A DNA stretch of 64,000 nt, taken from Emcibacter sp. (GTDB taxonomy: Bacteria; Pseudomonadota; Alphaproteobacteria; Sphingomonadales; Emcibacteraceae). Each line of letters starts with the position of its first letter. The first letter of the stretch is position 1. The stretch lies in NCBI GenBank assembly GCA_021774785.1, contig JAJFIQ010000016.1, positions 62,001 to 126,000 of the forward strand, written 5' to 3'. The notes under the pieces are model-generated. The model saw only the letters and a list, made by a program, of their open reading frames with translations. It was not told the DNA's origin and searched no databases. Below are positions 10,947 to 63,697 of this stretch, piece by piece. Both the position numbers and the translations under genes were made by a program.

Positions 10947-11095
10947 ACCTCATATTTTTCGATTTTGACGTAGCAGGCAACAGTTGAGTGGCGTGGATTA
11001 TATTTAATTTGATATTATCTCAAGTCAATCAATGTGGCCTGAAAAATTTCTTTTAGGGCAACTTTAGACATGACTATAACGAATAAGGAAAAGAA

Positions 11096-47636: not shown

Positions 47637-49424
47637 TTATTTTTTTAACCGATATGCTAATTGTGGTCGCGTGATACCGAGCGTGCGGGCTGCGGCGGAT
47701 AGGTTGCCATCGGCTTTTGCAACAGCTTTTTCAATGAGATTTCTCTCAAGTGTCTCAAGCCCTATATTTTGATCAATCAGGCTGTCTATGATTGTATCTA
47801 CAGGATGCTGGTCACGGTTATTCTCGTCCAGATTGGGGCTGGTTGAATCATTCACCGAACCATCTTTATTTATACCCAGGATGGGGATGGTGATTTCTTC
47901 GCCGAAAGTAAATAGATGGCTCAGGTCAATGGCACCATCATTGGGGGCCAAGATGACCCCCCTTTCTATTAGATTTTCAAGTTCCCGAATATTGCCGGGC
48001 CAGTTATAATTGAGAAACCCATTGATAGCACGGGATGTAAAACCGGTAATATTTTTATCGTAGCTGGTACCATATTTCTTTAGGAAGTGATTAATTAGTA
48101 GCGGGATATCAGCCTTTCGTTCCCGAAGAGGTGGAATATGAATGGGAAAGACATTCAGTCTAAAATATAAATCTTCCCGGAACCGCCCTTCTTTTACTTC
48201 CTGTTTTAGGTTAACATTGGTGGCTGCGATGACTCTAATATCTATCTCGATGGTTTTTTTGCCGCCGACACGCTCAATCTGTTGTTCCTGTAGGACGCGG
48301 AGCAATTTTCCCTGAGCCGCCAGAGATAATGTGCCAATTTCATCCAGAAATATGGTTCCGGTATCCGCCCGTTCAAAACGTCCTGCCCGGGATTCTATGG
48401 CCCCTGTGAAAGCACCTTTCTCAACACCGAATAGTTCTGATTCCAACAAGCTATCCGGTATGGCGGCACAGTTGACCGCGATATAGGGGGTGTCCTGCCG
48501 TTCACTGATCTGATGTAGGGTGCGGGCGAACATTTCCTTGCCTACGCCAGATTCCCCAAGGAACAATACCGTAGCATTGGTTTTGCCTACCTTGTCCAGC
48601 ATGTGACATGCCACATTAAAGGCCGCAGAAGCCCCCACCATATTTGTGGATATTTTTGAATGAAATTCAGTTTTTACATCAGGACTTATGTCCGCATCAA
48701 GATCGACAACCTGTTCACGTGCCTTCATAATGGTGTCAGCATTGGCAAAAGCCTGTGGCTGCATGAAGGCCATGTCTTCTTCAATATCATCCCATTCTTC
48801 AACTGGCTTGCCGATAATGCGGCAATGGACGTGCCCGATGGCGCGACATTCCACTTCCTGATATACAATTGGTCGACCCATAAAGACTGATGTATATCCA
48901 CTGGCGTAACCAATCTGCATCCAACAGACGGGTTCGGTTCCTATACCGTATTTTTCAATATGGATTTCATCCTCTATGCTGTCATGCCATAGAAATTCAC
49001 CGTAAAATTTGCCTTTAGCCACATCAGCTTCAAGTCGTACAGGCTCTACAGATACAATACCTTCCAGCGCGTGAAGCTGTGGACCGACGGAGAAAATATC
49101 GAAAAAATCCTCCCCCGGCCTTAACTTGGCGGCCAACTCTGCGTCCTGGGCGCCGGAGACATACCCCATTCGGGTTAACAGGGCGCGGGCCTTATTGATC
49201 CCAAGGGATTCAATAAGTTCAGAGCGTAATGCCCCCATGGAACCGGCATGTAACATCATCATGCGAATGTCATCAAGCCAGATCCGACCATCTTGTGGTG
49301 AAAATTTCAGGCGTTCAGAAAGGTCGTGAAAGTCCGGTAGGCCGGGAATCATTTCAATTTTATCGTTAATATCTTCGGGTTGACCAAAGGATGCCCGGCC
49401 CGGGAAAATATGAGATTTAGTCAC
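47637..49424 (-). CDS. Sigma-54 activator of phenol genes, DmpR/MopR-like
   Basis: A 595-residue enhancer-binding protein. An XylR-type aromatic sensor domain (about residues 25-125) and a V4R domain (about 130-200) carry [11 protein letters not shown] and [17 protein letters not shown], whose cysteines and glutamate match the zinc site next to the phenol pocket of MopR. The sigma-54 AAA domain (about 260-480) has Walker A GESGVGKE, the sigma-54 contact GAFTGA and Walker [10 protein letters not shown] Fis-type helix-turn-helix ([19 protein letters not shown]) ends the protein. Phenolic effectors bind the sensor and release the ATPase. It is divergent from the envelope module, and its targets are probably the two sigma-54 promoters at 49750 and 58796. 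Confidence 0.94.
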
Positions 49425-49841
49425 GTTATAGACCTTTCATAATTAACACATGAATAATAGCCCCGGACGATAAGTATTATACTCATTTCTACTGTATAAA
49501 TAAGCTATCTCATCCGGGAATTACAAGCGTTATTTTATGATTTAATCAATTTAACTAATAAAATAATAAGGAATTTTATCATTTGAGAAGGTCGGTATTT
49601 GTAATTCCCGGAACCTATTCAACGGATCGCTCTCATTTAATATATTAAGTAATTATATGGTTAAGTCTTTGAAAAACGTATAGGAAATTTAACGAGTTAA
49701 ACAATCGTTTTTAACAAAAAATTAAGATTCTCCAATGGAATAAAATAATTGGCATAGCTTTTGCATTTTTAGCTCCCTAAAGGCCCGACTAAAATTTTGA
49801 AATAAAATTAAAGGCCCTATTGATTATTTGGAGGATTGGAA
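49425..49841. other. Divergent regulatory region with inverted repeats
   Basis: No gene in 417 bases. It contains a perfect 13-bp inverted repeat CCGGGAATTACAA (49514-49526) / TTGTAATTCCCGG (49599-49611), a TGATTTAATCA palindrome at 49538-49548 between the arms, and the sigma-54 promoter at 49750. The repeats lie 140-240 bases before the promoter, where enhancer sites of DmpR-type proteins are expected. Confidence 0.6.
49750..49765 (+). promoter_or_regulatory. Sigma-54 promoter of the envelope module
   Basis: TGGCATAGCTTTTGCA has the -24 GG (49751-49752) and -12 GC (49763-49764) with exactly ten bases between and a TTGCA -12 box. It faces the Ycf48-like gene, about 77 bases before its start. 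Confidence 0.85.
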
Positions 49842-50831
49842 TTGTTTGCAGGATTAAAGGTTGAGAACCGGAAAACTTCCCTCATTGCACTGATTGGGCT
49901 ATTGGCGCTTGTATCAGGATGTGAGGCAAAACTCGATTTATCCGGGGTTGAGGCTTCTACAGCACAATCACAAACGCGCTATGATCATTATCAGGCGGCT
50001 GCCAGATCTTCTGAAGCCGTCGTGGTCATTGGTAACCGTGGGGTGATTCTGATTTCCAATGATACTGGTGAAAACTGGCGTCGTCATGCTCTACCCGGTA
50101 GCAGTCCGGTGTCATTCCCAACATTAGTAGATGTTGACGTATGTCCTGATAACCGCTTTGTAGTATTGGACGCTGACCGCAAGCTCTGGATATCAGATGC
50201 CAATGGTGAAAACTGGATATCCAAGCCTATTCCCACCGAAGAAGAAGTGCTTGACCTTACCTGTGATCAAAGTGGTGCTCTGTGGGTTGCGGGCAGTTTC
50301 ACCCTGATCATGGATAGCCATGACCTTGGAGATACCTGGACGGATAAATCCATTGCAGAAGATGCCATGTTCAGCCGTATCCAGTTTGTAGATCAACATA
50401 ATGGCATCGTGACGGGTGAATTTGGAACTGTTTACATCACAAATGATGGCGGGAAAAGTTGGGAAGCCAATAATTCTATTCCCAATGAATTTTACCCCAT
50501 GGCTTCGCATTTTATATCACCTGATGTGGGTTGGGTCGGGGGACTTCAGGGTATTATTTTTCATACGGAGGATGGTGGTAAAAATTGGCGTCGCCAGCAA
50601 ACAGGCACAGTTGCTCCAATCTATAATATCTGTGTCGTGAATGGTGAGGCTTATGCCGTTGGCGAGCAAGGTACCATTCTCACTTTATCAGGAGATGTGT
50701 GGAAGCCGGTCGATGCAAAGCTGGGGTTTGGTTACCTGCGGGCCTTGCTTCCCATGAAGGACGGAAATTTGTTGATCGCGGGTGGTGGTGGATTAGTCAA
50801 GCTTCTGACTGCGCAGGATCTAGAGGATTAA
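49842..50831 (+). CDS. Ycf48/HCF136-like beta-propeller lipoprotein
   Basis: A 329-residue protein of the Ycf48-like (BNR repeat) propeller group. I place the start at TTG 49842, seven bases after GGAGG (49830-49834); a TTG at 49836 is too close to it. The N-terminus has a lipobox LVSGCEAK with cysteine near residue 27, so it is a lipoprotein. Repeats of the form SNDTGENWRRH, SDANGENWISK, TNDGGKSWEA and TEDGGKNWRRQ recur through the chain. In plants and cyanobacteria the fold assists photosystem II assembly, but heterotrophs carry it next to RND, DUF1302 and DUF1329 genes, as here. A chaperone or scaffold role for that envelope module is inference. Confidence 0.85.
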   Translation: MFAGLKVENRKTSLIALIGLLALVSGCEAKLDLSGVEASTAQSQTRYDHYQAAARSSEAVVVIGNRGVILISNDTGENWRRHALPGSSPVSFPTLVDVDVCPDNRFVVLDADRKLWISDANGENWISKPIPTEEEVLDLTCDQSGALWVAGSFTLIMDSHDLGDTWTDKSIAEDAMFSRIQFVDQHNGIVTGEFGTVYITNDGGKSWEANNSIPNEFYPMASHFISPDVGWVGGLQGIIFHTEDGGKNWRRQQTGTVAPIYNICVVNGEAYAVGEQGTILTLSGDVWKPVDAKLGFGYLRALLPMKDGNLLIAGGGGLVKLLTAQDLED

Positions 50832-50893
50832 TTCATTCGTCGGGCGATCGAAAAGAAACAGAATTAAGAAATATAATATTAGGGACTATGTAA

Positions 50894-53287
50894 ATGTCGA
50901 AATTCACCCACTTTCTCAAAGATATTGATGATCATATCTTTGCTTACCCAAAAATAATTTTGGGTTTGTTACTGGCTATCACGATATTTTTTGCTATGCA
51001 AATTCCCGGGGTAAAAATGTATTCCGACTTTGCCGATCTGTTGCCACAAGAGCATCCCTATATTCAGCTTCATAACGATATTCGCGATACATTTGGCGGT
51101 GCCAATGTGGTCGTGGTTGGTGTTGAGGTGGAAGAAGGCACGATCTTTAATAATGATGTGTTGGCTCTGATACATCGCTTGACACAGGCTGTAGATAGTC
51201 TGCCGGCGATCAATCATAACCTTGTTACCAGCCTGACCCATCGTACTTCACGGAAAACATGGTTGTCAGAAGAAGGTTCTATTGTATCACAACCCTATTA
51301 TGATCCTACCAAAAACCCCATTTTGAATGTGGAAGAAATGGCCGAAATGCGTGATGCCGTATTGGCTAACCCTCGGGTATATGGTCTGATGGTCTCGCCT
51401 GATCTGAAATCTGCATTGATCAAGGGACAGCTGAACGAGGGGGCTCTTGATTATGAAAAAACCTTTATTCAAATTCAGGAATTCAGGGCTAAAGAACAGG
51501 TTTCGGGTATCAATATTCATGTAACCGGACAGCCAATGCTTGTGGGTTGGGTCTATACTTATATTCAGCAAATCATTCAGATTTTCATGTTCACTATTGT
51601 CTTCATGTTCGTATTGTTGATGGTTTATTTCAGACGGTTATACGGTGTTCTGATCCCCATGGTGGGCATTGCCATTTCTTCCATATGGGGAATCGGTATC
51701 CTGTCGTTGTTGGGCTATAATCTGGACCCGCTCACCCTGGTGATACCATTCCTTATTTCCGCACGGGCAATGTCCCACGGTATACAGCTTGTGGAGCGTT
51801 ATTATGATGAATTTGCCAAATGCGGCAATGGTCGAAAAGCAGCCCGCACAACTTTTGACAGTCTGTTCCGTCCGGGTTCACTCGGGGTGATCTCTGATGC
51901 GGTGGGTCTGTTGCTGATATCATTAGGATCGATCCCCATAAATACAAAATTATCTTATTATGCCTCTCTCTGGGCGTTATGCGTGATTGTGAATGTTCTG
52001 GTCATGGTGCCTATGCTGTTGTCGGTTTTACCCCAACCCAAGAGGGCAGAAATTCGTCATGGCTGGATCAGAAAATTTCTTCCCAAGGTTGGTGCTTTAG
52101 TGGCAAATCCAAATAGCGCAAGACGCATATTAATGGCGACCATAGCTTTGTTTGTAATCGGCGGATTTTTTAGCTCATCTGTACAGATTGGCGAAGCTGA
52201 ACCGGGCAGCCCCTTGCTCTATCCCGATCATGATTACAATATGTCTTCATCGGCGATTAATACCAGCTTTCCCGGTTCCGAAGAGCTTTATATCATTGCC
52301 CGGACGGAAGAAAAAGGCGGCCTGAAAAAGCCGGAAGTGATTAAGGCGCTGGAAGACTTCCAGAATTATATGTTGAATGACCCGGAACTTGGTGGAGCCA
52401 AGGGCCTGCCGGATTTGGTGAAGCAGGTTAATCGTTTGTTGCATAATAATGATCCGCGTTATTTTCAGGTACCCCATGATGAATTTTATGTGGGCGGGCT
52501 TATGTTTGCTTATATGGCATCAAGCCCCATTCCCGGTGCTTTGAAAGAGTTTGTAAATCCGGAAGAAACCGATGCTAATATGGTGTTCTATTACAAAGAT
52601 CATCAGGGCGAAACCATTCGCCGGGCTACCCATATGATTAAAAGCTGGATCGCTGAAAAGGGTGAAACCATAGAGGGGCTGAGCTTTCATCTGGCCGGGG
52701 GTATCATCGGGGTGACGGCTGCTATTAATGAGGCCGTATTTGTCACCAACGCGATTGTAGTTCCATCGGTTCTGGCACTGATATTCCTGTTTGTGACTTT
52801 CTTTTATGGTTCGTTCCATGCGGGTTGGCTGATGTTTCTGGCCATGTCTTTTGCCACCATCCTCAGCTATGGCTACATGGGCTTTATGAACATAGGAATC
52901 AACGTGAATACGGTGCCGATCATAGCGGTCGGAATCGGGGTTGGTATCGATTATTCCATTTACATAATGGACCGTATCCGGGAAGAAATTTTAACATCGG
53001 ATAGTCTACAGGCGGCGGTTATTCGCGCCATCAGTACCACGGGCCTTGCGGTCTGTGTAACAGCAGGTGCCTTGATCCTTGGGGTGATCATGTGGGTATT
53101 CCTGTCGGATCTGCGTTTCCAGTCCGATGCCGCCCTGCTTCTTGTTGTGATGCTTGTCTTTAACATGGTGGCTTCCCTATTTATCGTCCCCAGCTGGATC
53201 ACAATCTTTAAACCAAAATTTATCACAGACATTGAGGTTGTCGACGGCGTGATTGAAGAAAAGCACGCCACCCAAACGGCAGCTTGA
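50894..53287 (+). CDS. RND superfamily exporter (MMPL-like)
   Basis: A 797-residue inner-membrane protein with two halves, each one helix, a large periplasmic domain and five helices, as in the RND/MMPL exporters. ILGLLLAITIFFAMQIPG near residue 22 is the first helix; VVVVGVEVEEG near 75 begins the first periplasmic domain; the second half starts near residue 410. VGIGVGIDYSIYIMDRIREE near 680 is a conserved helix-4 segment with the Asp used for proton relay in this family. It belongs to the predicted lipid or hydrophobic-compound transporters rather than the drug pumps with outer-membrane channels. It lies between the Ycf48-like and DUF1302 genes and is probably co-transcribed. Confidence 0.9.
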   Translation: MSKFTHFLKDIDDHIFAYPKIILGLLLAITIFFAMQIPGVKMYSDFADLLPQEHPYIQLHNDIRDTFGGANVVVVGVEVEEGTIFNNDVLALIHRLTQAVDSLPAINHNLVTSLTHRTSRKTWLSEEGSIVSQPYYDPTKNPILNVEEMAEMRDAVLANPRVYGLMVSPDLKSALIKGQLNEGALDYEKTFIQIQEFRAKEQVSGINIHVTGQPMLVGWVYTYIQQIIQIFMFTIVFMFVLLMVYFRRLYGVLIPMVGIAISSIWGIGILSLLGYNLDPLTLVIPFLISARAMSHGIQLVERYYDEFAKCGNGRKAARTTFDSLFRPGSLGVISDAVGLLLISLGSIPINTKLSYYASLWALCVIVNVLVMVPMLLSVLPQPKRAEIRHGWIRKFLPKVGALVANPNSARRILMATIALFVIGGFFSSSVQIGEAEPGSPLLYPDHDYNMSSSAINTSFPGSEELYIIARTEEKGGLKKPEVIKALEDFQNYMLNDPELGGAKGLPDLVKQVNRLLHNNDPRYFQVPHDEFYVGGLMFAYMASSPIPGALKEFVNPEETDANMVFYYKDHQGETIRRATHMIKSWIAEKGETIEGLSFHLAGGIIGVTAAINEAVFVTNAIVVPSVLALIFLFVTFFYGSFHAGWLMFLAMSFATILSYGYMGFMNIGINVNTVPIIAVGIGVGIDYSIYIMDRIREEILTSDSLQAAVIRAISTTGLAVCVTAGALILGVIMWVFLSDLRFQSDAALLLVVMLVFNMVASLFIVPSWITIFKPKFITDIEVVDGVIEEKHATQTAA

Positions 53288-53340
53288 TGGCCCATCAGGG
53301 CAATTTTCAAGTTCCTAATAACAATATTCGGGAGTACTAA

Positions 53341-55317
53341 ATGACTAAAATAAAACATTTAAAACTTGGGACTAAGGCCGCGACGATGTCGATGGCAGCG
53401 GTATTATCCTTTACGGGAATATCGGGCGTATATGCCGGCACTTCTGCTGACGGAACGCTGGAATGGAGTGGTTTTCTGGAGAATGCCACATTTCTGCGTA
53501 AAGATGTGGGATTGGTAAAATTCCGTAATACTGTTCAGTTAGAACTGGTTAAGCAATTCAGTACAGGCAACACTTTCTCTGAGCTGTCATTCAATGTGAC
53601 TTTTCGCGGGTCATATGATGGTGTTTATGACCTGAACAAGGACGATTTTGGACGTAATGCCGGCGGCCCCATTGAGCTGCAAAGCACATTCTCCGCTGGC
53701 CCGCCTTTTGTACCTCACGGGGGTGGACTGGTATCCACTGGTGCCTTTTTCTTTGGCTTTGATGTGGGGGCGAACCCCAATGAAGGCCTGATGGTCTTGG
53801 GCAGTGATTCCCACGCCAATGATCAGGGCGGGGTTTCTTTTGGGATTCCCGTGCGTCCTTGTGATGTTGATAGCCGGGGTTGTATTCCGGGTTATCTGGA
53901 CCTTTCTTTGGATAATCTGCGTTTTCCAGAATTCAACAGCCGGATGGATTTCCTGCGTGAAGCCTATATTGATGGCAGCATTCCTTTCTCCAACGGTCAT
54001 GAACTGAATATCCGTCTGGGTCGTCAGCAAGTTGTCTGGGGCCGTACAGACCTGTTCCGGGTTTTGGATGTGATCAACCCTGTGGATTTCTCCCGTCAGA
54101 ATATTTATGACGAGTTGGAAGATATTCGTATCCCCCAATGGATTTTGAATTTGGATTATCGTATGGGTGCCGTAGGCAGCTTTGATGATTTGAATTTAAA
54201 TCTGGTTTGGAATTTCGATAAATTCCGTCCTAATTCACTGGGGCAGGGCGGTACGCCTTATCAGATATTAGGGGCTGGCGGGTTTTTCCGTGGCATGAAA
54301 AACTGCTGGGATAATGGTTGTACGGTAGCCAATTTTGCCGGACTTCCTGTGCCGGGCACAACGGGCCTTGCGGCGACTGACTTTGCGCCGGGAACCCTTG
54401 GTATCCGTAGTGCGCAATTACCGGAATGGAAACTGGACAATACCCAGATCGGCTTTAAGGTCGAAGGCGTAAAAGGTGGTGTTGGATTTTCTGTTAACTA
54501 TCTGACTTACCTGAGCCAATTACCTTCCTTGCGTGGTGGTAGTGTGGGACCGGCGGCCTTGAATAACTTCACAGGTGAAGTGAAACAATGGCCTTATCTG
54601 ATTGCTTTTGATATAGCCTTTCCGCGCATACATCTGTTTGGCGGGTCCATGGACCTCTATGCGGACAGTATCAAATCTGTGTTCCGTGTTGAGGCGGCCT
54701 ATACCACGGGCGAGGAATTTGCCAATACGCTCAGGCCAGAGCTTTTTTCCAAGAATGATGTCATCCGTTATGTCATCGGCTGGGATCGGGATACGTTCAT
54801 TCCTTTCCTGAACAAGAATAAAGCCTTCCTCTTTTCCGCACAGTTATTTGGGCAGCATATCCTGAACCATGAACTGGAAGATACCCCAGCCACACTGGCG
54901 GGCATACCGGGCTTTACCAAGGCCGGTATTCCAGACTGGAAAGAAAACTGGATCATGACTTTCCTGATGAAAGGCTGGTACATGCAGAACCGTTTAAGTC
55001 CTCAGCTGTTATCGGCTTATGACTTCCGGGCGGGGGCGGCTGTTATTTCACCGTCTGTTGACTGGCTGATTAATGATGACTGGCGTTTGATTATTGCCGC
55101 GAATTTCAAGTTCGGTAAAGGCCCGCGCAAGTTCGATGATTGTCGTTCGTGCAACCCATGGGGTCCGTTCACGGCAACACCATTCCATGCCGACCCCTTT
55201 GCAGCGGGATCTGTCGGACTTGGCGGATTTGAGCCTCTGGGACGTTTCCGCGCTGGGCCTATAGGTATGGCAAATCGTGAAGACGAAATTCAGATCACAC
55301 TGCGCTATCGCTTCTAA
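53341..55317 (+). CDS. DUF1302 outer-membrane barrel protein
   Basis: A 658-residue protein of the DUF1302 family. A signal peptide (about residues 1-33, ending VYAG) is followed by LEWSGFLENATFLRKD, then RLGRQQVVWGRTDLFRVLDV near residue 225 with NPVDFSRQN, the marks of the family, and the chain ends in a barrel-like EIQITLRYRF with terminal phenylalanine. So it is most likely an outer-membrane beta-barrel. GGGAG precedes ATG 53341. DUF1302 and DUF1329 genes almost always travel together, as they do here, 26 bases apart. Their function is not settled; uptake or traffic of hydrophobic compounds across the envelope is a reasonable guess. Confidence 0.88.
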   Translation: MTKIKHLKLGTKAATMSMAAVLSFTGISGVYAGTSADGTLEWSGFLENATFLRKDVGLVKFRNTVQLELVKQFSTGNTFSELSFNVTFRGSYDGVYDLNKDDFGRNAGGPIELQSTFSAGPPFVPHGGGLVSTGAFFFGFDVGANPNEGLMVLGSDSHANDQGGVSFGIPVRPCDVDSRGCIPGYLDLSLDNLRFPEFNSRMDFLREAYIDGSIPFSNGHELNIRLGRQQVVWGRTDLFRVLDVINPVDFSRQNIYDELEDIRIPQWILNLDYRMGAVGSFDDLNLNLVWNFDKFRPNSLGQGGTPYQILGAGGFFRGMKNCWDNGCTVANFAGLPVPGTTGLAATDFAPGTLGIRSAQLPEWKLDNTQIGFKVEGVKGGVGFSVNYLTYLSQLPSLRGGSVGPAALNNFTGEVKQWPYLIAFDIAFPRIHLFGGSMDLYADSIKSVFRVEAAYTTGEEFANTLRPELFSKNDVIRYVIGWDRDTFIPFLNKNKAFLFSAQLFGQHILNHELEDTPATLAGIPGFTKAGIPDWKENWIMTFLMKGWYMQNRLSPQLLSAYDFRAGAAVISPSVDWLINDDWRLIIAANFKFGKGPRKFDDCRSCNPWGPFTATPFHADPFAAGSVGLGGFEPLGRFRAGPIGMANREDEIQITLRYRF

Positions 55318-55343
55318 GAATTGATTTAACGAAGGATTTTAAA

Positions 55344-56657
55344 ATGAAAAATTTAATTACGAGTATGATAACGGGTGCGGTTCTGGGGCTGGGGGCAACA
55401 TCAGCCACTGCCGCAGACATGAATGATGTTGAAAAATCATTCTACCCCTACAAGAACAGCGTTCCCAGCCATGAAGGTTTGTCTGCGGGTATGACCATTA
55501 ATCAGTCCAATGTGGAGCAGTTCAAGGATATTCTTGATGAAGGTATGTATCAGTTCATCAAGGATGGGTGGACAGAGATGAGTGTCACCGACACTATGGC
55601 ATTCGAATTGAATACCTCTTATATCGAAGCAACAAAAAACGGTATGGGTAAAGTATCGCTCGGGGAAAAACCAGGTGATATTAGAGGATTTGTTGCCGGT
55701 CGGCCTTTCCCGCAGGAGCCGAGTATGGATGATCCCCGCGCTGGTGAAAAACTCGCCTGGAATTATAAATATGGCTATAACTGGGGTGATAATGCGGCAA
55801 TTTACCCATTCTACTGGAAATTCCGTGATCTGAATTCAGAAAAAATTGAAAGAACGCTGAAATTTAACTTTCACTTTCTGAATCTGAAACATCGGGTGAA
55901 TGACGATCCAAAGCCCGACCTGCCAAAGAACCCCGCTAATTTATTCCGTGGTATTTATGTGCAGGTTCTGGAACCCTTTGATGTGAAGAATACCCAGCTC
56001 TTGATCCATCGCTATGAAGATGATTTGAAGCGGGACAACGCGTGGTTATATCTGGGATTCCAGCGTCGTGTGCGTCGGCTGGCAACGGGTCAGATTACCG
56101 ATAGTTTCTTAGGGTCCGACCTGATGATCGAGGATTTTGAAGGTTACAACGGGCGTATTTCTGATATGTCCTGGTCCTATAAGGGCACCAAGAATGTCAT
56201 GCTGCCCTTCTATAAGCATAATGATCAGAAGCTTACCGAAGATCATAAAACGCCCGATGGCTTCCAATTTATTGAGTTCGGTGGCAAGGGCGGTTGTTTC
56301 CCACAGATCGACTGGCAATTACGCAAAGTATATGTAGTTGAATCAGCGCCTGTTGATCCAAACCACCCCATCAGCAAGCGGGTTCATTATGTTGATGCGG
56401 AAACATTCACTCTACCCCGGACGGTAATTTATGACCGCAAGGGTGAGTTATGGAAAACCTTTATCATTGGTCAGGCCCATCCGGATCATCATCTGCCGAA
56501 GAATAAGGGCACCGGGGTCTCCATTGATGATTCCTTTATGATGCTGGATGTTCAGGGTGCTCATTGCACAACCGGCCAGTTTAAAGGTCAGGTAGACCCC
56601 GCTCTTAACCCACGTAAGAAATTTACCGTTCAGAATATGCGTGTGACTGGTAAATAA
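55344..56657 (+). CDS. DUF1329 periplasmic protein
   Basis: A 437-residue protein of the DUF1329 family, whose fold is related to LolA/LolB lipid carriers. The signal peptide ends in ATAADMND (about residue 24). SVPSHEGLSAGMTINQSNVEQ near residue 38, NPANLFRGIYVQVLEPFD near 192, YLGFQRRVRRLA near 235 and SDLMIEDFEGYNG near 258 are typical. Its end, FTVQNMRVTGK, is repeated in remnant form at 57312-57356. A strong terminator follows. It probably acts in the periplasm as a partner of the DUF1302 barrel and the RND protein. Confidence 0.88.
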   Translation: MKNLITSMITGAVLGLGATSATAADMNDVEKSFYPYKNSVPSHEGLSAGMTINQSNVEQFKDILDEGMYQFIKDGWTEMSVTDTMAFELNTSYIEATKNGMGKVSLGEKPGDIRGFVAGRPFPQEPSMDDPRAGEKLAWNYKYGYNWGDNAAIYPFYWKFRDLNSEKIERTLKFNFHFLNLKHRVNDDPKPDLPKNPANLFRGIYVQVLEPFDVKNTQLLIHRYEDDLKRDNAWLYLGFQRRVRRLATGQITDSFLGSDLMIEDFEGYNGRISDMSWSYKGTKNVMLPFYKHNDQKLTEDHKTPDGFQFIEFGGKGGCFPQIDWQLRKVYVVESAPVDPNHPISKRVHYVDAETFTLPRTVIYDRKGELWKTFIIGQAHPDHHLPKNKGTGVSIDDSFMMLDVQGAHCTTGQFKGQVDPALNPRKKFTVQNMRVTGK

Positions 56658-56723: not shown

Positions 56724-57287
56724 ATGCCTTATTTACCTTCTTTAAAAAGTGGTACGTTGTTTGATGTTTTCAAACAATATCCACATTTCTCACATTCATT
56801 ACATCTCTTTCTTCAGGATTTATTGCGCGGACCATCGCCGTTTAGTGTAGCGGAACGCGAACTCATTGCCGGATATGTTTCCGGCTTGAACAAATGTGAA
56901 TTTTGTTGCGGAACACATGCAGGTTTGGCGGAGCGGCTTGGCGGATGGGAGGGTCTGGTGGAAATATTCCTTAACGACCAGCCCTATGAGCCGGAGAATC
57001 CAAAAATGGCTTCAATATTAGCTTATGTACGTAAGCTGACACTGGATATTGATAAGGTCGGACAAGAGGACATCGATGTGCTTTTGGTAGATGGCTGGGA
57101 TGAACAGGCCGTTGTTCACGCCAATCTTGTATGCGGTGCGTTTAATCTGTTCAATCGTTGGGTTACTGGCTTGGGCGTGTCGGGGGATCCGCAATATGTT
57201 AAGGGCACTATTAAACAACTGCTCAGTGCCGGCTACGTTGGCGTTAACGATATGATTGAAAATTTTTTATTAAAACAGTCTACCTAA
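56724..57287 (+). CDS. AhpD-like / carboxymuconolactone decarboxylase family protein
   Basis: A 187-residue alkylhydroperoxidase-like helical protein. SVAERELIAGYVSGLNKC near residue 33 leads into CEFCCGTHAGLA (about residues 50-61), the CxxC-x2-H redox site of AhpD-like and peroxidase-related enzymes. AAAAAAGG precedes ATG 56724. It probably reduces peroxides formed near the oxygenases, or it may act in the ring pathway; the sequence does not decide. It lies between the DUF1329 gene and a remnant of a second DUF1329 gene end, which suggests that a rearrangement brought it here. Confidence 0.85.
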   Translation: MPYLPSLKSGTLFDVFKQYPHFSHSLHLFLQDLLRGPSPFSVAERELIAGYVSGLNKCEFCCGTHAGLAERLGGWEGLVEIFLNDQPYEPENPKMASILAYVRKLTLDIDKVGQEDIDVLLVDGWDEQAVVHANLVCGAFNLFNRWVTGLGVSGDPQYVKGTIKQLLSAGYVGVNDMIENFLLKQST

Positions 57288-57419: not shown

Positions 57420-58025
57420 ATGGTAAGCAGTTCCATAAGTCCGGTCGAGGTCAACATCTTCTTTAATTTCAGAAGCCCTTATTGTTATCTGGCGTCCAAG
57501 AGGATGTTTACCACCTTTGAAGAATATCACGCCAAAATGATCTGGAAACCATTTGGGGGATGGTCTGGCAGGTCAGCTCCAGAGCGGGCAAAAATTAAAA
57601 TCCCCCTGGTCCGTCAGGATGTGGAACGCAGTGCCCGAAAATTAGGAATTCCTTTCATACCACCCCCCATAGAAACGGACCCAACGCTCGCCGGAGCCGT
57701 ATCATTGGTCGCCGAACAGGAAGGTGTGCTTGAGGAATATGTGGTTGAGGTCATGCGCAAAGAATGGGCGGAAGGGTGCAATATTGGCGATATTAATGTT
57801 CTGTTGGAGGTTGGCGAAGAAATCGGCCTTGGTCGAGGTGCCATCACCCGCGCCAGTGATAACAAAGCCCTGTTTAAAAAGATGAATGAAAATTGGGAAG
57901 AAGCTCAGATACGGGGCGTATTCGGGGTTCCGACATTCGTTGTCGGCGATCAGATTTTCTGGGGCAATGATCGTATCGACTGCCTGAAGGACCATCTGCA
58001 TGACTTGAGATTGCGGAAAATATAA
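57420..58025 (+). CDS. 2-hydroxychromene-2-carboxylate isomerase (DsbA-like fold)
   Basis: A 201-residue glutathione-dependent isomerase of the kappa-GST/DsbA fold, as in NahD of naphthalene breakdown. FFNFRSPYCYLA near residue 11 holds the catalytic serine in SPY, PPPIETDPTLAGAVSL near 80 fits the helical domain, and GVFGVPTFVVGDQIFWGNDR near 165 is the hallmark of the family. AGGAAATC precedes ATG 57420. No CxxC of thiol oxidases is present. In a phenol operon this enzyme is not needed, so its presence hints at bicyclic or otherwise larger aromatics, or at another glutathione-linked isomerisation. It is followed 9 bases later by a glutathione transferase. Confidence 0.87.
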   Translation: MVSSSISPVEVNIFFNFRSPYCYLASKRMFTTFEEYHAKMIWKPFGGWSGRSAPERAKIKIPLVRQDVERSARKLGIPFIPPPIETDPTLAGAVSLVAEQEGVLEEYVVEVMRKEWAEGCNIGDINVLLEVGEEIGLGRGAITRASDNKALFKKMNENWEEAQIRGVFGVPTFVVGDQIFWGNDRIDCLKDHLHDLRLRKI

Positions 58026-58034: not shown

Positions 58035-58682
58035 ATGAAACTTTATTATCGTCAAGATTGCCCATTTTGTTGGAAAGTAAGACTTTTTCTACAGGAATCT
58101 GGCATTCAGGCTCAGGAATTTTCGGTGCAATTGGGCCAAATGCACCCTGATGTCGTGGCTCTGAACCCCAACGGAACGGTGCCTGTTCTGATTGATGGAG
58201 AATTGGTTCTTTGGGAATCTGCTGTGATTATTGAATATCTGGTTGATGATTTCTCAAAAACCTCTCTGTTGGACGGCTCATCTGTTACCCGTGCCCTCAT
58301 CAGGCAACTACATAGTTACAGCGATAATAGAATAGGCAAAGTTTTATTCCCCTTTATCAAGCAGATTCGGGACAGTGTAAACGGCAAAGTGACAGACGAG
58401 CTTTATCAATCGACAGCAAATAACTGGGTAATAATTCAGGAAACCCTTGCCGCACAGCTTGGTGACAAAGACTTTTTTGGAGAGAATTTTTCCGTAGCTG
58501 AATGCGCTTTAATCCCGAGATTTGCGCTCGCGATAGTTTATGGGCTGCCCTTAAATGATGATTTTCCGAACCTGAAAGCGTGGTTCCAGAGATGCATGAA
58601 ACGGCCTTCATTCATGGCTAGTTTGCCCGAAGCTTTTCCGGGTATTGATCAAATGATAAAATTAGAAAATTTACAGATTTGA
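58035..58682 (+). CDS. Glutathione S-transferase family protein
   Basis: A 215-residue glutathione transferase. The thioredoxin-like N-terminal domain (about residues 1-78) begins MKLYYRQDCPFCWKVRLFLQ, with CPFC in the position of a glutaredoxin site, and NPNGTVPVLIDGE and WESAVIIEYL give the cis-proline and glutathione-binding turn. The C-terminal helical domain has FFGENFSVAECALIPRF near 153. The CPFC site fits an Omega-like or glutaredoxin-like activity more than a conjugating one. TAAGGATATGTC before the ATG and the 9-base gap to the isomerase show an operon. It may supply glutathione chemistry to the isomerase step (inference). Confidence 0.88.
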   Translation: MKLYYRQDCPFCWKVRLFLQESGIQAQEFSVQLGQMHPDVVALNPNGTVPVLIDGELVLWESAVIIEYLVDDFSKTSLLDGSSVTRALIRQLHSYSDNRIGKVLFPFIKQIRDSVNGKVTDELYQSTANNWVIIQETLAAQLGDKDFFGENFSVAECALIPRFALAIVYGLPLNDDFPNLKAWFQRCMKRPSFMASLPEAFPGIDQMIKLENLQI

Positions 58683-58694
58683 TCATTTCATCAA
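58679..58694. promoter_or_regulatory. Candidate DmpR-type upstream activator site
   Basis: TTGATCATTTCATCAA resembles the TTGATCAATTGATCAA-type enhancer sites of XylR/DmpR. It overlaps the stop codon of the transferase gene and lies about 100 bases before the -24 box of the phenol hydroxylase promoter, a usual distance. Confidence 0.55.
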
Positions 58695-58795: not shown

Positions 58796-58811
58796 TGGCA
58801 TGTTCCTTGCT
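58796..58811 (+). promoter_or_regulatory. Sigma-54 promoter of the phenol hydroxylase operon
   Basis: TGGCATGTTCCTTGCT, with GG at 58797-58798 and GC at 58809-58810 separated by ten bases, is close to the -24/-12 consensus. It lies 40 bases before dmpK. Confidence 0.9.
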
Positions 58812-58850: not shown

Positions 58851-59147
58851 ATGACACGAATTAAACAGGAAGATCGGGACCGCTTACAGGTATATCGAAA
58901 GTCGGTACGTGTGTTTGGCATACGAAAAGGCAAATTCCTGGAGTTTGACTTTACCGTTGGATGTGAGGAATTGACCATTGAGCTGGTCATGCCATATCCC
59001 ATTTTTAAGGAATTTTGTGAAACCAATCATGTGGCGGAAATTTTATGTGATGAAGGCATTAATGATGATTTTGACAGATTGGCTGGGGGCGTATTGCCGC
59101 AATTATATGACGAGAAAAATATTATACAGTTGGGAGACTTCAAGTGA
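58851..59147 (+). CDS. dmpK: Phenol hydroxylase assembly subunit P0
   Basis: A 98-residue protein like DmpK/PoxA, the small subunit that is not part of the active oxygenase but helps to activate it, perhaps by inserting iron. YRKSVRVFGIRKGKFLEFDF near residue 11 and ELVMPYPIFKEFCE near 42 fit the family, and the length is close to that of DmpK. It is the first gene after the sigma-54 promoter and overlaps dmpL by four bases. GGAAATTGA precedes ATG 58851. Confidence 0.88.
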   Translation: MTRIKQEDRDRLQVYRKSVRVFGIRKGKFLEFDFTVGCEELTIELVMPYPIFKEFCETNHVAEILCDEGINDDFDRLAGGVLPQLYDEKNIIQLGDFK

Positions 59148-60142
59148 GTTTGGAAATTAAAACGAATGTTATTCAGCCACGGCGGCATACCTATTCTCAT
59201 ATCGCTAAAAGGCTTGGGGCGGACAAACCGGCGACCCGCTATCAGGAAGGGACCTGGGACCTTCAGCCAACGGTTAATTTTCACTACCGCCCAACATGGA
59301 AGCCAGATCAGGAACTGTATGACAAGAGCCTGACCAGCATCCAGATGGAAGATTGGTATACATTCAATGATCCCCGACAGATGTATTACGGCACCTATAC
59401 CATGGCCCGTCATAAAATGATGGAAGCCGAAGAGAGTCACTTTAAATTCATTGATAAAAGTAACATGATCGGTCTGATGGATGCTGACTGGCAGCAAAAA
59501 ATCAAGACGTTCTTATTGCCGCTGCGCCATTTTGAATGGGGGGCCAATATGAATAATTGTGATTGTTCGGATAAAGCTTATGGCACAGCCATCAGTCAGG
59601 TGGCGCTATTTGCCGCCATGGACAGGTTGGGCATGGCGCAAATTATCAGCCGCGTCGGCTTACTGTTGGATGACAACACTGGAAAAAGTCTGGATCAGGC
59701 CAAGGTTGACTGGCTGGAAAGTGATTTGTGGCAGGGTGTGCGCAAAATGGTTGAGGACAGCTTTGTGCTGGATGACTGGTTTGAACTGCTGGTGGCCCAA
59801 AATCTATGTATGGATGGTGTCGTTTTCCCGCTTTTTTATCATTATTTTGAGGACGCCGGTATCAGGCAAGGCGGAACAGCTATGTCCATGCTCAATGAAT
59901 TTATGCAGGACTGGGGCAAGGACGAAAAAAGATGGCTGGATCAGCTATTGAAAGTTACAGCAGCTGAAAGCGCGGAAAATGCAGCCCTATTGTCAAAATG
60001 GGCAGCCACATGGACAGAACGGGCGGTCACGGCTTTCACGCCCATTGCCAAGCATGTGTTGGGGGATGAGGCTGCTGATGTCATGTCGTCTATTCGGGCA
60101 GAGATAACAAAACGGGCAAAAAAGTCCGGTATTGAAATATAG
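59144..60142 (+). CDS. dmpL: Phenol hydroxylase beta subunit P1
   Basis: A 332-residue subunit of the soluble di-iron oxygenase, the ferritin-like partner of DmpN without an iron site of its own. RYQEGTWDLQPTVNFHYRP near residue 29, FNDPRQMYYGTY near 74 and RHFEWGANMNNC near 127 are typical of the TmoE/DmpL group. It starts at GTG 59144, which overlaps the stop of dmpK (GTGA), and GGGAGACTT is upstream. It forms the (alpha-beta-gamma)2 oxygenase with DmpN and DmpO. Confidence 0.94.
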   Translation: MSLEIKTNVIQPRRHTYSHIAKRLGADKPATRYQEGTWDLQPTVNFHYRPTWKPDQELYDKSLTSIQMEDWYTFNDPRQMYYGTYTMARHKMMEAEESHFKFIDKSNMIGLMDADWQQKIKTFLLPLRHFEWGANMNNCDCSDKAYGTAISQVALFAAMDRLGMAQIISRVGLLLDDNTGKSLDQAKVDWLESDLWQGVRKMVEDSFVLDDWFELLVAQNLCMDGVVFPLFYHYFEDAGIRQGGTAMSMLNEFMQDWGKDEKRWLDQLLKVTAAESAENAALLSKWAATWTERAVTAFTPIAKHVLGDEAADVMSSIRAEITKRAKKSGIEI

Positions 60143-60151
60143 GAGAAAGTC

Positions 60152-60424
60152 ATGAGCAGGATTGTATCAATCACATTGCAGAATAACGACGATGCCCGAC
60201 CGATCATAGAGGCCATCGAAAAAGATAATCCCGATGCCACGGTTAACCTTTATCCGGCAATGGTCAAGATTGACTGTGATGGTCGTTTGATCGTCAAACA
60301 GGAAACCGTCGAAGGGCTTCTGGGCCGGGAATGGGACGTACAGGAATTACACCTGAGCATCGTCAGTATCGCGGGAAATGTGGACGAAGAAGACGATTAT
60401 TTTGAGTTAAGCTGGAATATATAG
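60152..60424 (+). CDS. dmpM: Phenol hydroxylase effector protein P2
   Basis: A 90-residue cofactor-free coupling protein of the MmoB/DmpM family, which binds the oxygenase and tunes the di-iron site. VSITLQNNDDARPIIEAIE near residue 5 and NLYPAMVKIDCDGRLIVKQ near 32 match the family, and the length equals that of DmpM. AGGAGAAAG before ATG gives a strong ribosome site. It lies between dmpL and dmpN with gaps of about ten bases. Confidence 0.94.
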   Translation: MSRIVSITLQNNDDARPIIEAIEKDNPDATVNLYPAMVKIDCDGRLIVKQETVEGLLGREWDVQELHLSIVSIAGNVDEEDDYFELSWNI

Positions 60425-60434
60425 GAGCAGAGAT

Positions 60435-61952
60435 ATGGCTGAAAAAAGAAAAAAGAAACTGGGCATTAAACAACGCTATTCCATGCTTACACGTGGTCTT
60501 GGTTGGGATACCACCTATCAGCCTATGGACAAAGTTTTTCCCTATGATAATTATGAAGGCATTATCATTCATGACTGGGAAGGCTGGGAAGACCCTTTCC
60601 GTCTGACCATGGATGCCTACTGGAAATTCCAGTCGGAAAAGGAGAAAAAGCTCTATGCGGTGATTGATAGCTTTGCCCAGAATAATGGTCACCTTGGCAT
60701 TACCGATGCCCGTTATGTTAATGCGATCAAGCTGTTCCTGACCGGAGTTTCGCCACTGGAATATCAGGCCGCACGCGGTTTTACCCATGTGGGCCGTCAA
60801 TTTCGTGGTGTGGGACCAAGGGTTGCCTGTCAGATGCAGGCCATAGACGAACTGCGCCATGTGCAAACCCAGATTCATTCCATGAGCCATTATAATAAAT
60901 TTTTTGATGGGCTTCACAGCGCCCCGCACATGCATGACCGGGTCTGGTATCTGTCGGTTCCTAAATCATTCTTTGACGATGCCCGTACCGCTGGGCCGTT
61001 TGAATTTCTGACCTCTATTTCATTTGCTTTTGAATATGTGCTGACCAACCTGCTGTTTGTGCCCTTCATGTCGGGTGCGGCCTTTAATGGTGATATGGCG
61101 ACAGTGACCTTTGGTTTCTCTGCCCAGTCTGACGAAGCCCGTCACATGACCCTGGGGCTGGAGGTGATTAAATTCATGCTTGAACAGGATGAGCGCAATA
61201 TCCCCATTGTACAGCGCTGGATGGATAAATGGTTCTGGCGCGGCACACGTATGCTTACCCTCGTTGGCATGATGATGGATTATATGCTACCTAAGCGTGT
61301 TATGTCATGGCGTGAAGCATGGGATATTTATTTTACCGAAGCGGGCGGAGCTCTGTTTGCAGACCTTGCGCGTTACGGGATCAAACCACCAAAATATGCC
61401 GATATTGCCACCAAAGAGGCTGAACATATCAGCCATCAGGCGTGGAATATTTTCTATAACTATACTCATGCGGCGGCTTTTCATACGTGGATTCCGGAGA
61501 AGGAAGAACTGGACTGGCTGTCAGAGAAATATCCGGACACTTTCGATAAATATTATCGTCCACGCCTTGAATATCTGGACAAGGAAGAAAAGGCCGGACG
61601 GCGTTTTTATAACGATATCCTGCCCATGTTGTGTCAGGTATGCCAAATCCCCATGGGCTTTACCGACATGGATGATCCGACAACCATTTCCTTTCATTCA
61701 TCGGAATATCAGGGCAATAAATATCACACTTGTTCTCATGGTTGTAAGGATATCTTTGATTATGAGCCTGAGAAATATGTTCAGGCCTGGTTACCGGTTC
61801 ATCAGATTTATCAGGGCAATTGTGGCGGGGCCGAAGTTCCCGATGTGCTTAAATGGTACAACTTCAATCTGGGCGCAGATAATATGGAATATCAAGGATC
61901 ACCCGATCAGAAGTTATGGGATGAGTGGCAGGCCCACCGTAAGAAAGCCTGA
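60435..61952 (+). CDS. dmpN: Phenol hydroxylase alpha subunit P3 (di-iron oxygenase)
   Basis: A 505-residue catalytic subunit that hydroxylates phenol to catechol with O2. The di-iron ligands are seen in EYQAARGFTHVGRQ (about residue 112), DELRHVQTQIH (about 141, E and H), FEYVLTNLLFVPF (about 200) and SDEARHMTLGLE (about 236, E and H). YHTCSHGCKDIFDYEPEKY near the C-terminus is the YHS-like zinc segment present in DmpN and TomA3. The length agrees with the family (about 510). GGAGCAGAG precedes ATG. The order K-L-M-N-O-P-Q is that of the Pseudomonas dmp operon. Confidence 0.97.
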   Translation: MAEKRKKKLGIKQRYSMLTRGLGWDTTYQPMDKVFPYDNYEGIIIHDWEGWEDPFRLTMDAYWKFQSEKEKKLYAVIDSFAQNNGHLGITDARYVNAIKLFLTGVSPLEYQAARGFTHVGRQFRGVGPRVACQMQAIDELRHVQTQIHSMSHYNKFFDGLHSAPHMHDRVWYLSVPKSFFDDARTAGPFEFLTSISFAFEYVLTNLLFVPFMSGAAFNGDMATVTFGFSAQSDEARHMTLGLEVIKFMLEQDERNIPIVQRWMDKWFWRGTRMLTLVGMMMDYMLPKRVMSWREAWDIYFTEAGGALFADLARYGIKPPKYADIATKEAEHISHQAWNIFYNYTHAAAFHTWIPEKEELDWLSEKYPDTFDKYYRPRLEYLDKEEKAGRRFYNDILPMLCQVCQIPMGFTDMDDPTTISFHSSEYQGNKYHTCSHGCKDIFDYEPEKYVQAWLPVHQIYQGNCGGAEVPDVLKWYNFNLGADNMEYQGSPDQKLWDEWQAHRKKA

Positions 61953-61985
61953 CATGCAACAAACATTAGAACAAGGATTGATGAG

Positions 61986-62345
61986 ATGTCTGTAACTTCC
62001 ATCGGAAAATATGAATTTGAACCACTGGACAACCAAGAAAATTTTCACGGTAACCAACTAACCTATATCAACTGGGAACAGCATTTGCTGTTCTGTGCCC
62101 CGGTTTGTTTACCCTTGCCGCCGGAGATGCCCTTTGGCACCCTCGTGAAAGAGGTTCTGCCGGGCGTTTACAACAAGCATCCCGATTATGAGAAGATCAA
62201 GTGGGATGATGTCATCTGGAAACTGGATGGGGCTGATTTTACGCCCAATATGAACGCGAGCTTGGCTGATAATGGTTTTAGTCATAAGTCTCTGGTCCGA
62301 TTCTGGACGCCGGGACTAGATGGTATCGAGGGTAGCCATAGCTGA
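61986..62345 (+). CDS. dmpO: Phenol hydroxylase gamma subunit P4
   Basis: A 119-residue small subunit of the oxygenase. GKYEFEPLDNQENFHGNQL near residue 7, FCAPVCLPLPPEMPFG near 35 and WDDVIWKLDG near 73 follow DmpO. AAGGATTGATGAG lies before ATG 61986. The stop overlaps the start of dmpP by one base (TGATG). Confidence 0.93.
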   Translation: MSVTSIGKYEFEPLDNQENFHGNQLTYINWEQHLLFCAPVCLPLPPEMPFGTLVKEVLPGVYNKHPDYEKIKWDDVIWKLDGADFTPNMNASLADNGFSHKSLVRFWTPGLDGIEGSHS

Positions 62346-63403
62346 TGAGCTTTGATCTTACCATAGAACCCATCGGTGAAGTGATAGAGGTAGAGGAAGG
62401 CCAGACCATTCTGGATGCGTGCCTGCGCGCGGGAATCTATATCCCCTATCAATGTAATCATGGCCTGTGCAGTACCTGCAAGGTTGAGGTGGTTGAAGGT
62501 GATGTGGATCTTGGTGATGCTTCGCCCTTTGCCCTGATGGATTTTGAACGGGATGAGGGTAAGGCACTGGCCTGTGTTTGCACGCTGCAAAGCGATGTGG
62601 TTATAGAGGCTGATATCGAAGAGGATGAAGATTCTGAATATCTGCCGATTATTGATTATACGGGTATGGTTTCAGAGGTCACCGCCCTTACCCCCGATGT
62701 GAAAAAGATCATTATTTCACTTGAACAGAAAGCTGAATTTCAGGCCGGACAATATATCCAGCTGGATATCCCTGGCGTTGAAGGGCCACGTGCATTTTCT
62801 ATTGCCAATTCACCGGACCATGGGGATCATGTGGAGCTTCACGTACGTTTAGTCGCGGGCGGTGCGGGTACGACCTATCTTCATAATGAGCTTGCCGCTG
62901 GTGATGGCTTATCCTTTTCCGCGCCCTATGGACATTTTTTTGTGCGCAAGTCACAGAATAAACCGATGATATTTATTGCTGGCGGCACGGGCTTATCAAG
63001 CCCGAAATCCATGATTGATGAATTACTGGAAGCCGGATACGAAGAAAAGCTGACCCTGTTTCACGGGGTGCGGGCCAAGGTGGATTTATATTATCAGAAT
63101 TATTTTCAGGCATTGGCAGATAGCCATGATAATTTTACCTATATTCCGGCCCTGTCCGAGAAAAAAGACGATGATGATTGGGACGGCGAAGTTGGTTTTG
63201 TTCATGAGGCGGTGGAACGCTATTTCGATGGCTCTTTTGCCGGGCATCAGGCTTATCTTTGCGGCCCACCGCCTATGATTGAGGCCTCAATCCGCGCCCT
63301 GATGAAGGGCCGCCTGTTCGAGAAAGATATTTACTGTGAGAAATTTCTGAGTAAGGCAGATGGCACCGACGATAAGCGTTCGCCCCTGTTTAAAAGAATA
63401 TGA
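62345..63403 (+). CDS. dmpP: Phenol hydroxylase reductase P5
   Basis: A 352-residue NADH-dependent reductase that feeds electrons to the oxygenase. An N-terminal plant-type [2Fe-2S] domain (about residues 1-90) has CNHGLCSTCKVEV with the fourth cysteine in ACVCTLQ; the FAD domain (about 105-205) has RAFSIANSP near 152; the NAD domain has AGGTGLSSPKSMI near 216 and YLCGPPPMIEA near 302. Length and layout equal those of DmpP and TomA5. It overlaps dmpO by one base and dmpQ by four. Confidence 0.97.
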   Translation: MSFDLTIEPIGEVIEVEEGQTILDACLRAGIYIPYQCNHGLCSTCKVEVVEGDVDLGDASPFALMDFERDEGKALACVCTLQSDVVIEADIEEDEDSEYLPIIDYTGMVSEVTALTPDVKKIIISLEQKAEFQAGQYIQLDIPGVEGPRAFSIANSPDHGDHVELHVRLVAGGAGTTYLHNELAAGDGLSFSAPYGHFFVRKSQNKPMIFIAGGTGLSSPKSMIDELLEAGYEEKLTLFHGVRAKVDLYYQNYFQALADSHDNFTYIPALSEKKDDDDWDGEVGFVHEAVERYFDGSFAGHQAYLCGPPPMIEASIRALMKGRLFEKDIYCEKFLSKADGTDDKRSPLFKRI

Positions 63404-63687: not shown

Positions 63688-63697
63688 GGAGAGAAAA

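Follow-up and report, generated by a model that had tools for sequence, protein, structure and literature searches.

What does a set of four envelope genes do at the head of a phenol-degradation operon? The window analyzed here, a stretch of 64,000 nucleotides from Emcibacter sp. (GenBank assembly GCA_021774785.1, contig JAJFIQ010000016.1, positions 62,001 to 126,000; part of contig C8 of the genome that we label G000), carries at positions 49842–56657 a cassette encoding a Ycf48-like propeller, an RND transporter, a DUF1302 barrel, and a DUF1329 protein. An earlier reading made from the letters alone (hereafter, the sequence-only reading) had placed these four families here and had nominated them as an undescribed transport system. 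The gene assignments held, as all four genes are open, lie on the + strand, and match the named families in a Pfam search of the window proteins. The novelty did not, because AmeABCD of Castellaniella defragrans comprises these same four proteins and has a deletion phenotype (PMC6394551; statements on this and the other papers cited below concern the parts of their text that were available), and further reports of related sets exist. The kind of system is thus known, and what is new here is its phenol-regulon setting. At a rough probability of 43%, we regard the cassette as a trans-envelope, proton-driven RND system of the AmeABCD kind that is joined to the phenol/catechol regulon and exports membrane-partitioned aromatics; its direction and cargo are the parts that we infer.

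Genes of the cassette and of the surrounding operon

The propeller gene (49842–50831, + strand; PF14870, E 7.8e-21) starts at TTG 49842 or alternatively at TTG 49836, the former being better placed behind a GGAGG as judged by eye, and its product carries the lipobox LVSGC followed by Glu. The relatives of this protein are Ycf48 structures; against the Ycf48 equivalog model it scored 83.6 bits and did not reach the cut-off of 326. The RND/MMPL gene (50894–53287, + strand; 797 residues; PF03176, E 1.5e-26) encodes an HAE3-like inner-membrane transporter, for which the best NCBIfam match was the HAE3 model TIGR00921, yet under its cut-off (132.4 vs 351.9 bits). It has S294-H295 in transmembrane helix 4 (TM4) and D686-Y687 in TM10, and its relatives of known structure, by sequence, are MmpL4, MmpL3, SecDF, and 5khn, the last of which we take to be HpnN; MmpL4 and MmpL3 are exporters. 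The set is completed by the DUF1302 outer-membrane barrel (53341–55317, + strand; Pfam E 2.2e-48; 18 long strands in the model) and the DUF1329 periplasmic LolA-fold carrier (55344–56657, + strand; DUF1329 E 3.7e-72, LolA_like E 3e-18), which has about 125 extra N-terminal residues. Gaps of 62, 53, and 26 bases separate the genes, so that the cassette reads as a single transcription unit. Its nearest named relatives are Emcibacter metagenome-assembled genomes, with the DUF1329 protein 86–87% identical. Pfam matches to a membrane fusion protein or a TolC-type outer-membrane factor were absent from the four cassette proteins, which distinguishes them from HAE1 efflux of the AcrAB-TolC type. The barrel matched DUF1302 and not the OprD family in Pfam, its likeness to Occ/OprD porins being one of fold alone, and LolCDE had no match among the ten window proteins scanned with Pfam.

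The operon context is the strongest functional evidence and lies outside the interval covered by the sequence-only reading. Divergent to the cassette, on the − strand at 47637–49424, is a MopR/MobR-like sigma-54 activator with XylR_N, V4R, AAA+, and Fis helix-turn-helix matches in Pfam; it was closest to the NCBIfam phenol regulator model V4R_TF_MobR, at 613.5 bits and below the cut-off of 999. Downstream, all on the + strand, are three accessory genes, encoding an AhpD/peroxidase-related protein (56724–57287; Pfam/NCBIfam), a DsbA-fold protein (57420–58025; Pfam) conserved in the operon, and a glutathione S-transferase-like protein (58035–58682; Pfam) kept in most operons. They are followed by the phenol hydroxylase genes dmpKLMNOP (58851–63403), all six with Pfam matches, and by a 2Fe-2S ferredoxin gene and the start of a catechol 2,3-dioxygenase gene (63400–64000). 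Past the window end, the contig continues with semialdehyde dehydrogenase-like, DmpE/H-, DmpF-, and DmpG-like genes of meta-cleavage. The AhpD-like gene was not found in the operons of relatives from the order; locus L106 carries one within its cassette.

The layout of activator, cassette, DsbA, glutathione S-transferase, dmpKLMNOP, ferredoxin, and dioxygenase recurs at the level of the order, being shared by 13 of the 19 regions examined (L034–L045 and L052), several of which are cut by contig ends; in L042 the glutathione S-transferase and dioxygenase matches are missing. A close DUF1329 gene (E below 1e-200) was carried by 12 of 196 genomes of the order and Phenol_Hydrox (PF02332) by 13, and all 12 cassette genomes have a PF02332 protein. 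The 13th PF02332 genome (G072) has its operon on a contig of 5.6 kb that breaks off at the DsbA gene, right at the expected start of the cassette. The corresponding Fisher value is 2.7e-18, a statistic that ignores relatedness and scores this contig-end case as a miss.

Outside the order, the analysis covered 80 named loci, nine of which hold the same DUF1329 gene as a locus from the genome set, so that the two sets overlap; family models, identity thresholds, and the lipobox pattern used throughout are home-made. All four genes were present in 65 of the 80, and every one of these 65 keeps the core order Ycf48-RND-DUF1302-DUF1329, which argues against a chance grouping; ten have an extra copy of one family near the cassette. 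At the other 15, the fetched sequence starts at most 4.0 kb before DUF1329, too short for the whole set. Phenol hydroxylase or meta-cleavage genes were in reach at 62 of the 80 named loci vs none of 40 sampled loci, and MopR-like genes at 38 vs 2; the sampled loci were hand-picked from 91 places of a phylum-wide sample in which several genomes had only 6 candidates scored. The proposal that the set recurs with genes for hydrophobic substrates is borne out by these counts. Where dmp genes were not visible at a named locus, the meta-pathway could still adjoin, as at L067, L078, and L081, while 14 of the 80 have no phenol, meta, or MopR gene in reach, nine of them shorter than 12 kb. Loci of Marinobacter and Pseudomonas have the dmp genes on the other flank of the activator; the layout thus varies between groups, which suggests that cassette and dmp genes came together, or were reshuffled, repeatedly. 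In Pseudomonas veronii from ground water contaminated with aniline, a conjugative plasmid holds dmpPONMLK, a sigma-54 regulator, YCF48, and RND, with DUF1302 and DUF1329 across the record start and exact sigma-54 sites before both YCF48 and dmpK.

Sigma-54 (−24/−12) sites were found on the + strand upstream of the cassette (TGGCATAGCTTTTGC, 49750–49764) and upstream of dmpK (TGGCATGTTCCTTGC, 58796–58810). With the exact pattern TGGCAYN5TTGC, the window holds 2 sites vs 0.44 expected, a number reached by 9 of 100 shuffles and hence weak for one window; allowing one mismatch gave 20 sites vs 19.7 expected in the window, which is chance level. Genome-wide, 46 exact sites were counted vs 12 for the reversed control. 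Since single-window counts are weak, the case rests on conservation among relatives. In 12 loci selected for having a dmpK gap (232,582 bases, both strands), all 18 exact sites lie upstream of the cassette or dmpK; this selection leaves out L034 (no site) and L050 (one site before the cassette, one elsewhere). With the window included, the site precedes dmpK in 12 of 12 loci and the cassette in 6 of the 8 having that gap, being missing in L034 and L035, both of which carry a LysR-like gene (by eye) inserted between activator and cassette. Among named loci, an exact site lies upstream of the propeller gene in 37 of 63, vs 0/63 on the opposite strand, 0/63 with the reversed pattern, 0/68 upstream of RND, and 0/72 upstream of DUF1302. 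Sampled loci had such a site upstream of the propeller in 0 of 19 cases and upstream of DUF1302 in 2 of 36. A block upstream of the cassette, ATGATTTnnTCAA, is conserved and resembles a site before dmpK in L040 and L041. At 58679–58694, TTGATCATTTCATCAA is like a DmpR/MopR upstream activator site, judged by the consensus, and similar sites occur in L037, L039, L040, and L041. An exact 14-nt inverted pair (49513–49526 and 49599–49612) was considered as a possible activator site and set aside, as it is not conserved in an alignment of relatives. Judged from these sequence patterns, the predicted control of the cassette by the MopR-like activator is well supported.

Relation to AmeABCD and similar sets

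AmeABCD, reported in 2018, is associated with efflux of and tolerance to apolar monoterpenes; its deletion lowered monoterpene tolerance and slightly raised Nile Red in de-energized cells (PMC6394551). Likened by description, both systems join a DUF1302 protein, a LolA-type DUF1329 protein, a Ycf48-like protein (COG4447), and an HAE3-type RND in one cassette, and AmeABCD likewise adjoins hydrocarbon catabolism and is substrate-induced (PMC6394551). The gene order differs, being Ycf48-RND-DUF1302-DUF1329 in the window and DUF1302-DUF1329-Ycf48-RND in AmeABCD; the 17 sampled four-family loci mostly follow the Ame order (12), with 2 in the window order, 2 in a third, and 1 in a longer one. The window propeller is a lipoprotein, whereas AmeC is predicted to be periplasmic, and the catabolic setting is a phenol/catechol operon with sigma-54 sites rather than monoterpene use. 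Because neither the Ame gene order nor the unanchored propeller is present, the window cassette is a variant and not AmeABCD itself.

Several further sets resemble it in part. In the phnL region of Delftia acidovorans Cs1-4, a YCF48 gene stands beside DUF1302 and DUF1329 genes by locus number, and the authors remark on an association of phnL orthologs with hydrocarbon oxygenases (PMC3958437). That region differs in its substrate, phenanthrene, in a phenotype read as vesicle or nanopod formation, and in that the available parts of the two papers mention no RND (PMC3958437, PMC3110197). PMC13101534 cites the Delftia paper for deletion of the DUF1329 gene DelCs14_1722; the available text of PMC3958437 names phnL, DelCs14_1758, YCF48. 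A "Nanopod" cluster of the benzene degrader ORM2a, known from a consortium, contains a porin-like protein, DUF1329, YCF48, and MMPL, differs in belonging to an anaerobic Desulfobacterota and in having two additional genes between, and its authors leave the transport direction open (PMC13101534). In Zoogloea oleivorans, DUF1302, DUF1329, a sigma-54 regulator, and dmpKLMNOP lie together, while RND and Ycf48 are not among ORFs 1–17 as given in the available text (PMC7012976). Plasmid 2 of Aromatoleum aromaticum EbN1 (NC_006824) has YCF48-MMPL-DUF1302-DUF1329 in the window order, but with beta-oxidation-type neighbors and a DUF1329 protein just 26.5% identical. In Pseudomonas putida, the counterparts are split between two separate loci, PP_0765/PP_0766 and PP_2018/PP_2019, of which PP_2018 is presumably Ycf48-like. 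These loci encode DUF1302, DUF1329, a periplasmic protein, and a multidrug efflux transporter, share a phenotype on Tween 20, and have predicted contacts that are weak for carrier-transporter and carrier-barrel and strong for the transporter with PP_2018 (PMC10866462).

Lineage marks and other RND-carrier-barrel sets

In an alignment of 68 RNDs (67 thinned from 100, plus that of the window), 64 proteins have His at TM4 position 295 and four have Asp or Glu, whereas Asp686 of TM10 is kept in 67. The four Asp/Glu-type proteins, from L053 and L054 and the second RNDs of L075 and L125, have no adjoining propeller gene. A second set, 27 RNDs drawn from ten genomes (19 new, 8 shared with the first alignment), has the SH motif in 26, with a propeller gene in the short flanks of 23 and none in those of the other three; the lone Asp-type member lacks the propeller gene. 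All propeller-paired RNDs in both alignments thus have His in place of Asp in TM4. A further mark is the lipid anchor of the propeller: the lipobox was found by pattern in 64 of 65 named loci, with LCAC in the 65th and Glu after the Cys in 61, vs 2 of 19 sampled loci and 1 of 4 in L048–L051.

RND and propeller genes are neighbors in 65 of 68 named cases and in all 18 sampled ones, the named exceptions being the second RNDs in L075 and L125 and L103, which is at a contig end. DUF1302 and DUF1329 adjoin in 77 of 83 named and 35 of 43 sampled cases; DUF1329 genes without this neighbor number 6/83 named (all within 3 kb of the locus end) and 8/43 sampled (none near an end). An RND lies within 8 kb of only 20 of the 43 sampled DUF1329 genes, and in genome G276 six DUF1329 matches contrast with a single RND match at E 1e-20. 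Because many carrier-barrel pairs lack a nearby RND, these counts suggest that one RND motor serves several carriers.

All three PF07044 matches of genome G000 adjoin RND and barrel genes. At L053 (contig C19, 5977–10457), a single 1059-residue protein unites an RND with a LolA-like domain and is followed by a DUF1302 barrel; the LolA-like domain comes after an apparent extra TM helix. At L054 (contig C11, 5712–10411), RND, LolA-like, and barrel genes are separate in a row, without a propeller, and the barrel has weak DUF1302 similarity (16.8 bits, cut-off 23.2). Among the sequence evidence, the natural fusion at L053, next to a DUF1302 barrel, speaks most strongly for contact between RND and carrier and argues for a direct hand-over. 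Thalassolituus TOL_3187/TOL_3188 resembles L053 in having MMPL and a LolA-like domain in one protein with a porin-like neighbor, and this fusion is induced on long-chain alkane (PMC6304351). It differs in substrate and is not of the window cassette type; the available text makes no mention of a propeller.

L050 (G066) and L051 (G054) hold a second, diverged four-gene set (RND 29–30% identical) in genomes that also have the phenol cassette. Each second cassette adjoins another MopR-like gene (58%), is preceded by an exact sigma-54 site, and precedes a monooxygenase operon whose gene order and Rieske-type ferredoxin resemble those of toluene monooxygenase (Tmo). L046 and L047 have stand-alone DUF1329 genes, 44–48% identical to that of the window, and the family models found no RND, DUF1302, or propeller in these fetched regions. 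Elsewhere in the window, 15145–47513 is a region of carbohydrate uptake and use with TonB receptors, ABC importer parts, and alpha-amylase-family and GH130 enzymes, together with, as judged by eye, an SSS transporter and a LacI-type regulator.

Transport path and direction

The sequence-only reading had drawn a path from an inner-membrane RND over a periplasmic carrier to an outer-membrane barrel, and the families, the LolA fold, and the barrel model make this likely. In the DUF1329 model (mean predicted local distance difference test score, pLDDT, 87.9; predicted template modeling score, pTM, 0.86), residues 126–437 adopt the fold shared by LolA and LolB of the Lol system, as found by VIA fold search. 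The best comparison was with Porphyromonas gingivalis LolA3 (9tp6; Z 22.1, root-mean-square deviation 2.5, 236 aligned), followed by a solved DUF1329 protein (Z 20.5), P. gingivalis LolB (Z 12.2), and classical LolA and LolB (Z about 8 to 10; Pseudomonas aeruginosa LolA 10.4). The description of this protein as LolB-like therefore agrees with the fold, which LolA and LolB share, but can be refined: its signal sequence is plain and lacks a lipobox Cys, which suits a soluble carrier of the LolA type better than a LolB lipoprotein. Its N-terminal 125 or so residues (55344–55720), before the LolA domain, were hardly probed by the fold search and form a candidate contact surface. The DUF1302 model (pLDDT 79.7, pTM 0.80) has 18 strands of at least 9 residues, the last ending in Phe. 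The fold searches of the models by VIA and Foldseek left the transport direction undecided: the exporter AlgE reached Z 20.4 in VIA, about 1 Z under the Occ porins, and ranked first in Foldseek with a weak TM-score of 0.35.

In the scheme that we favor, phenols would lead the divergent MopR-like activator to switch on the cassette together with the phenol hydroxylase operon. The RND would pick up aromatics partitioned into the inner membrane, driven by protons via the TM10 Asp-Tyr pair with the TM4 His replacing the usual acidic partner, and would pass them to the DUF1329 carrier, which would traverse the periplasm and unload at the 18-strand barrel, either outside the cell or into the outer membrane with possible shedding. 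As the usual partner of RNDs of this type, the lipid-anchored propeller may keep RND and carrier together. The net effect would be outward removal of toxic, membrane-dissolved substrate or intermediates during growth on aromatics. The export direction is suggested by the Ame mutant phenotype and by the known direction of RND and Lol systems, as known RND and Lol-type carriers act outward.

A number of observations weigh against this export scheme. Phenol is not very hydrophobic, and in the absence of an acidic TM4 residue proton coupling is less sure than in MmpL3. The top VIA matches of the barrel are Occ porins (Z 21.6; OpdK with vanillate, BenF-like), which are uptake channels. An exact sigma-54 site is absent from 26 of the 63 named loci, and L104, L106, L117, L125, and L133, each of at least 16 kb, show no phenol-pathway gene. 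In the P. veronii plasmid (L207:10653–12832) the RND may be interrupted, as it matches in two pieces that differ in frame and leave a gap of about 68 residues, and no gene is listed there. In L042 (G008; 10346–12402), a deletion joins the RND, up to residue 381, out of frame to DUF1302 from residue 322, yet DUF1329 and phenol hydroxylase are retained; unless the assembly is at fault, this genome can do without the cassette. The Ame mutant hardly differed from the wild type in real-time Nile Red efflux (PMC6394551). The Delftia phnL (Ycf48) mutant released more metabolites into the medium than the wild type, and the authors concluded that vesicle induction does not reflect membrane stress (PMC3958437), which together argue against a simple metabolite exporter or stress pump. 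The related P. putida genes are described as essential for use of Tween 20, a growth defect equally compatible with uptake (PMC10866462).

Uptake is the reading to which the Tween 20 phenotype would lead: hydrophobic aromatics would enter through the barrel, travel inward on the carrier, and be inserted into or cleared from the inner membrane with the help of the RND, so that the cassette would feed the monooxygenase. The tight linkage of the cassette to catabolic genes and the likeness of the DUF1302 model to Occ uptake porins agree with it, as does the second cassette before the toluene-monooxygenase-like operon of L050 and L051, which would be expected with one route per substrate. It runs counter to the established outward direction of RND and Lol-type carriers. 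In addition, added acetate relieved the Ame deletion defect on limonene, and the deletion mutant grew normally on functionalized monoterpenoids, though an ameB transposon mutant was reported to grow less on perillic acid (PMC6394551). We consider uptake doubtful, if still a serious competitor. Rather unlikely, in our judgment, is the movement of a lipid or surfactant-like molecule to the outer membrane, which would alter permeability or shed vesicles on hydrocarbons. LolA-type proteins are known to bind lipid, and the sequence relatives of the RND are siderophore and lipid exporters. No lipid biosynthesis gene is present among the operon genes examined, and a general lipid would not explain a subfamily tied to one catabolic pathway. 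Disruption of phnL (YCF48, DelCs14_1758) in Delftia Cs1-4 nevertheless greatly cut vesicles and nanopods and slowed growth on phenanthrene (PMC3958437), and its neighbors by number, the DUF1302 protein DelCs14_1756 and the DUF1329 protein DelCs14_1757, were found in nanopods (PMC3110197). The Ame and phnL results could be reconciled by a mixed case in which cargo is exported into the outer membrane and vesicles are then shed.

The cyanobacterial Ycf48 is an assembly factor of photosystem II, and the set might by analogy build or maintain another envelope component, the propeller acting in assembly, and itself carry no cargo; the Thalassolituus authors interpret their RND-LolA fusion as a porin transporter (PMC6304351). 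We hold this to be very improbable, given the distance of the propeller from the true Ycf48 model (83.6 vs 326 bits) and given that the fusion and the carrier fold indicate a hydrophobic cargo. Taking these readings together, the caution of the sequence-only reading that a direct function is not settled was fair as regards direction and cargo.

Returning to the export scheme, its wider form would be a general machine for oily molecules, in which a proton-driven RND passes cargo over a LolA-fold carrier to a dedicated barrel. One branch would fuse the carrier to the RND, and the other would have the TM4 His and the propeller, with one RND serving several substrate-tuned carrier-barrel pairs under their own regulators. 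We offer this generalization tentatively and think it more apt to fail than to hold. A sigma-54/phenol-regulon subfamily with a lipid-anchored propeller, a propeller-tied TM4 His, or the unification of fusion and cassette was not met in the literature, where no search was aimed at the TM4 His or at sigma-54 with the cassette and subscription papers were outside the scope, so that we make no claim of absence from print.

How hydrophobic growth substrates pass, or are kept from passing, the two membranes of degraders is an old open question. The locus links a system that is known, though its workings are poorly understood, to an aromatic regulon that ranks among the best studied, and through this link defined inducers and deletions of single genes can be used to test the direction, cargo, and roles of the parts. 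For the whole family, concrete mechanistic handles are provided by the TM4 His mark and by the fusion of RND and LolA-like domain.

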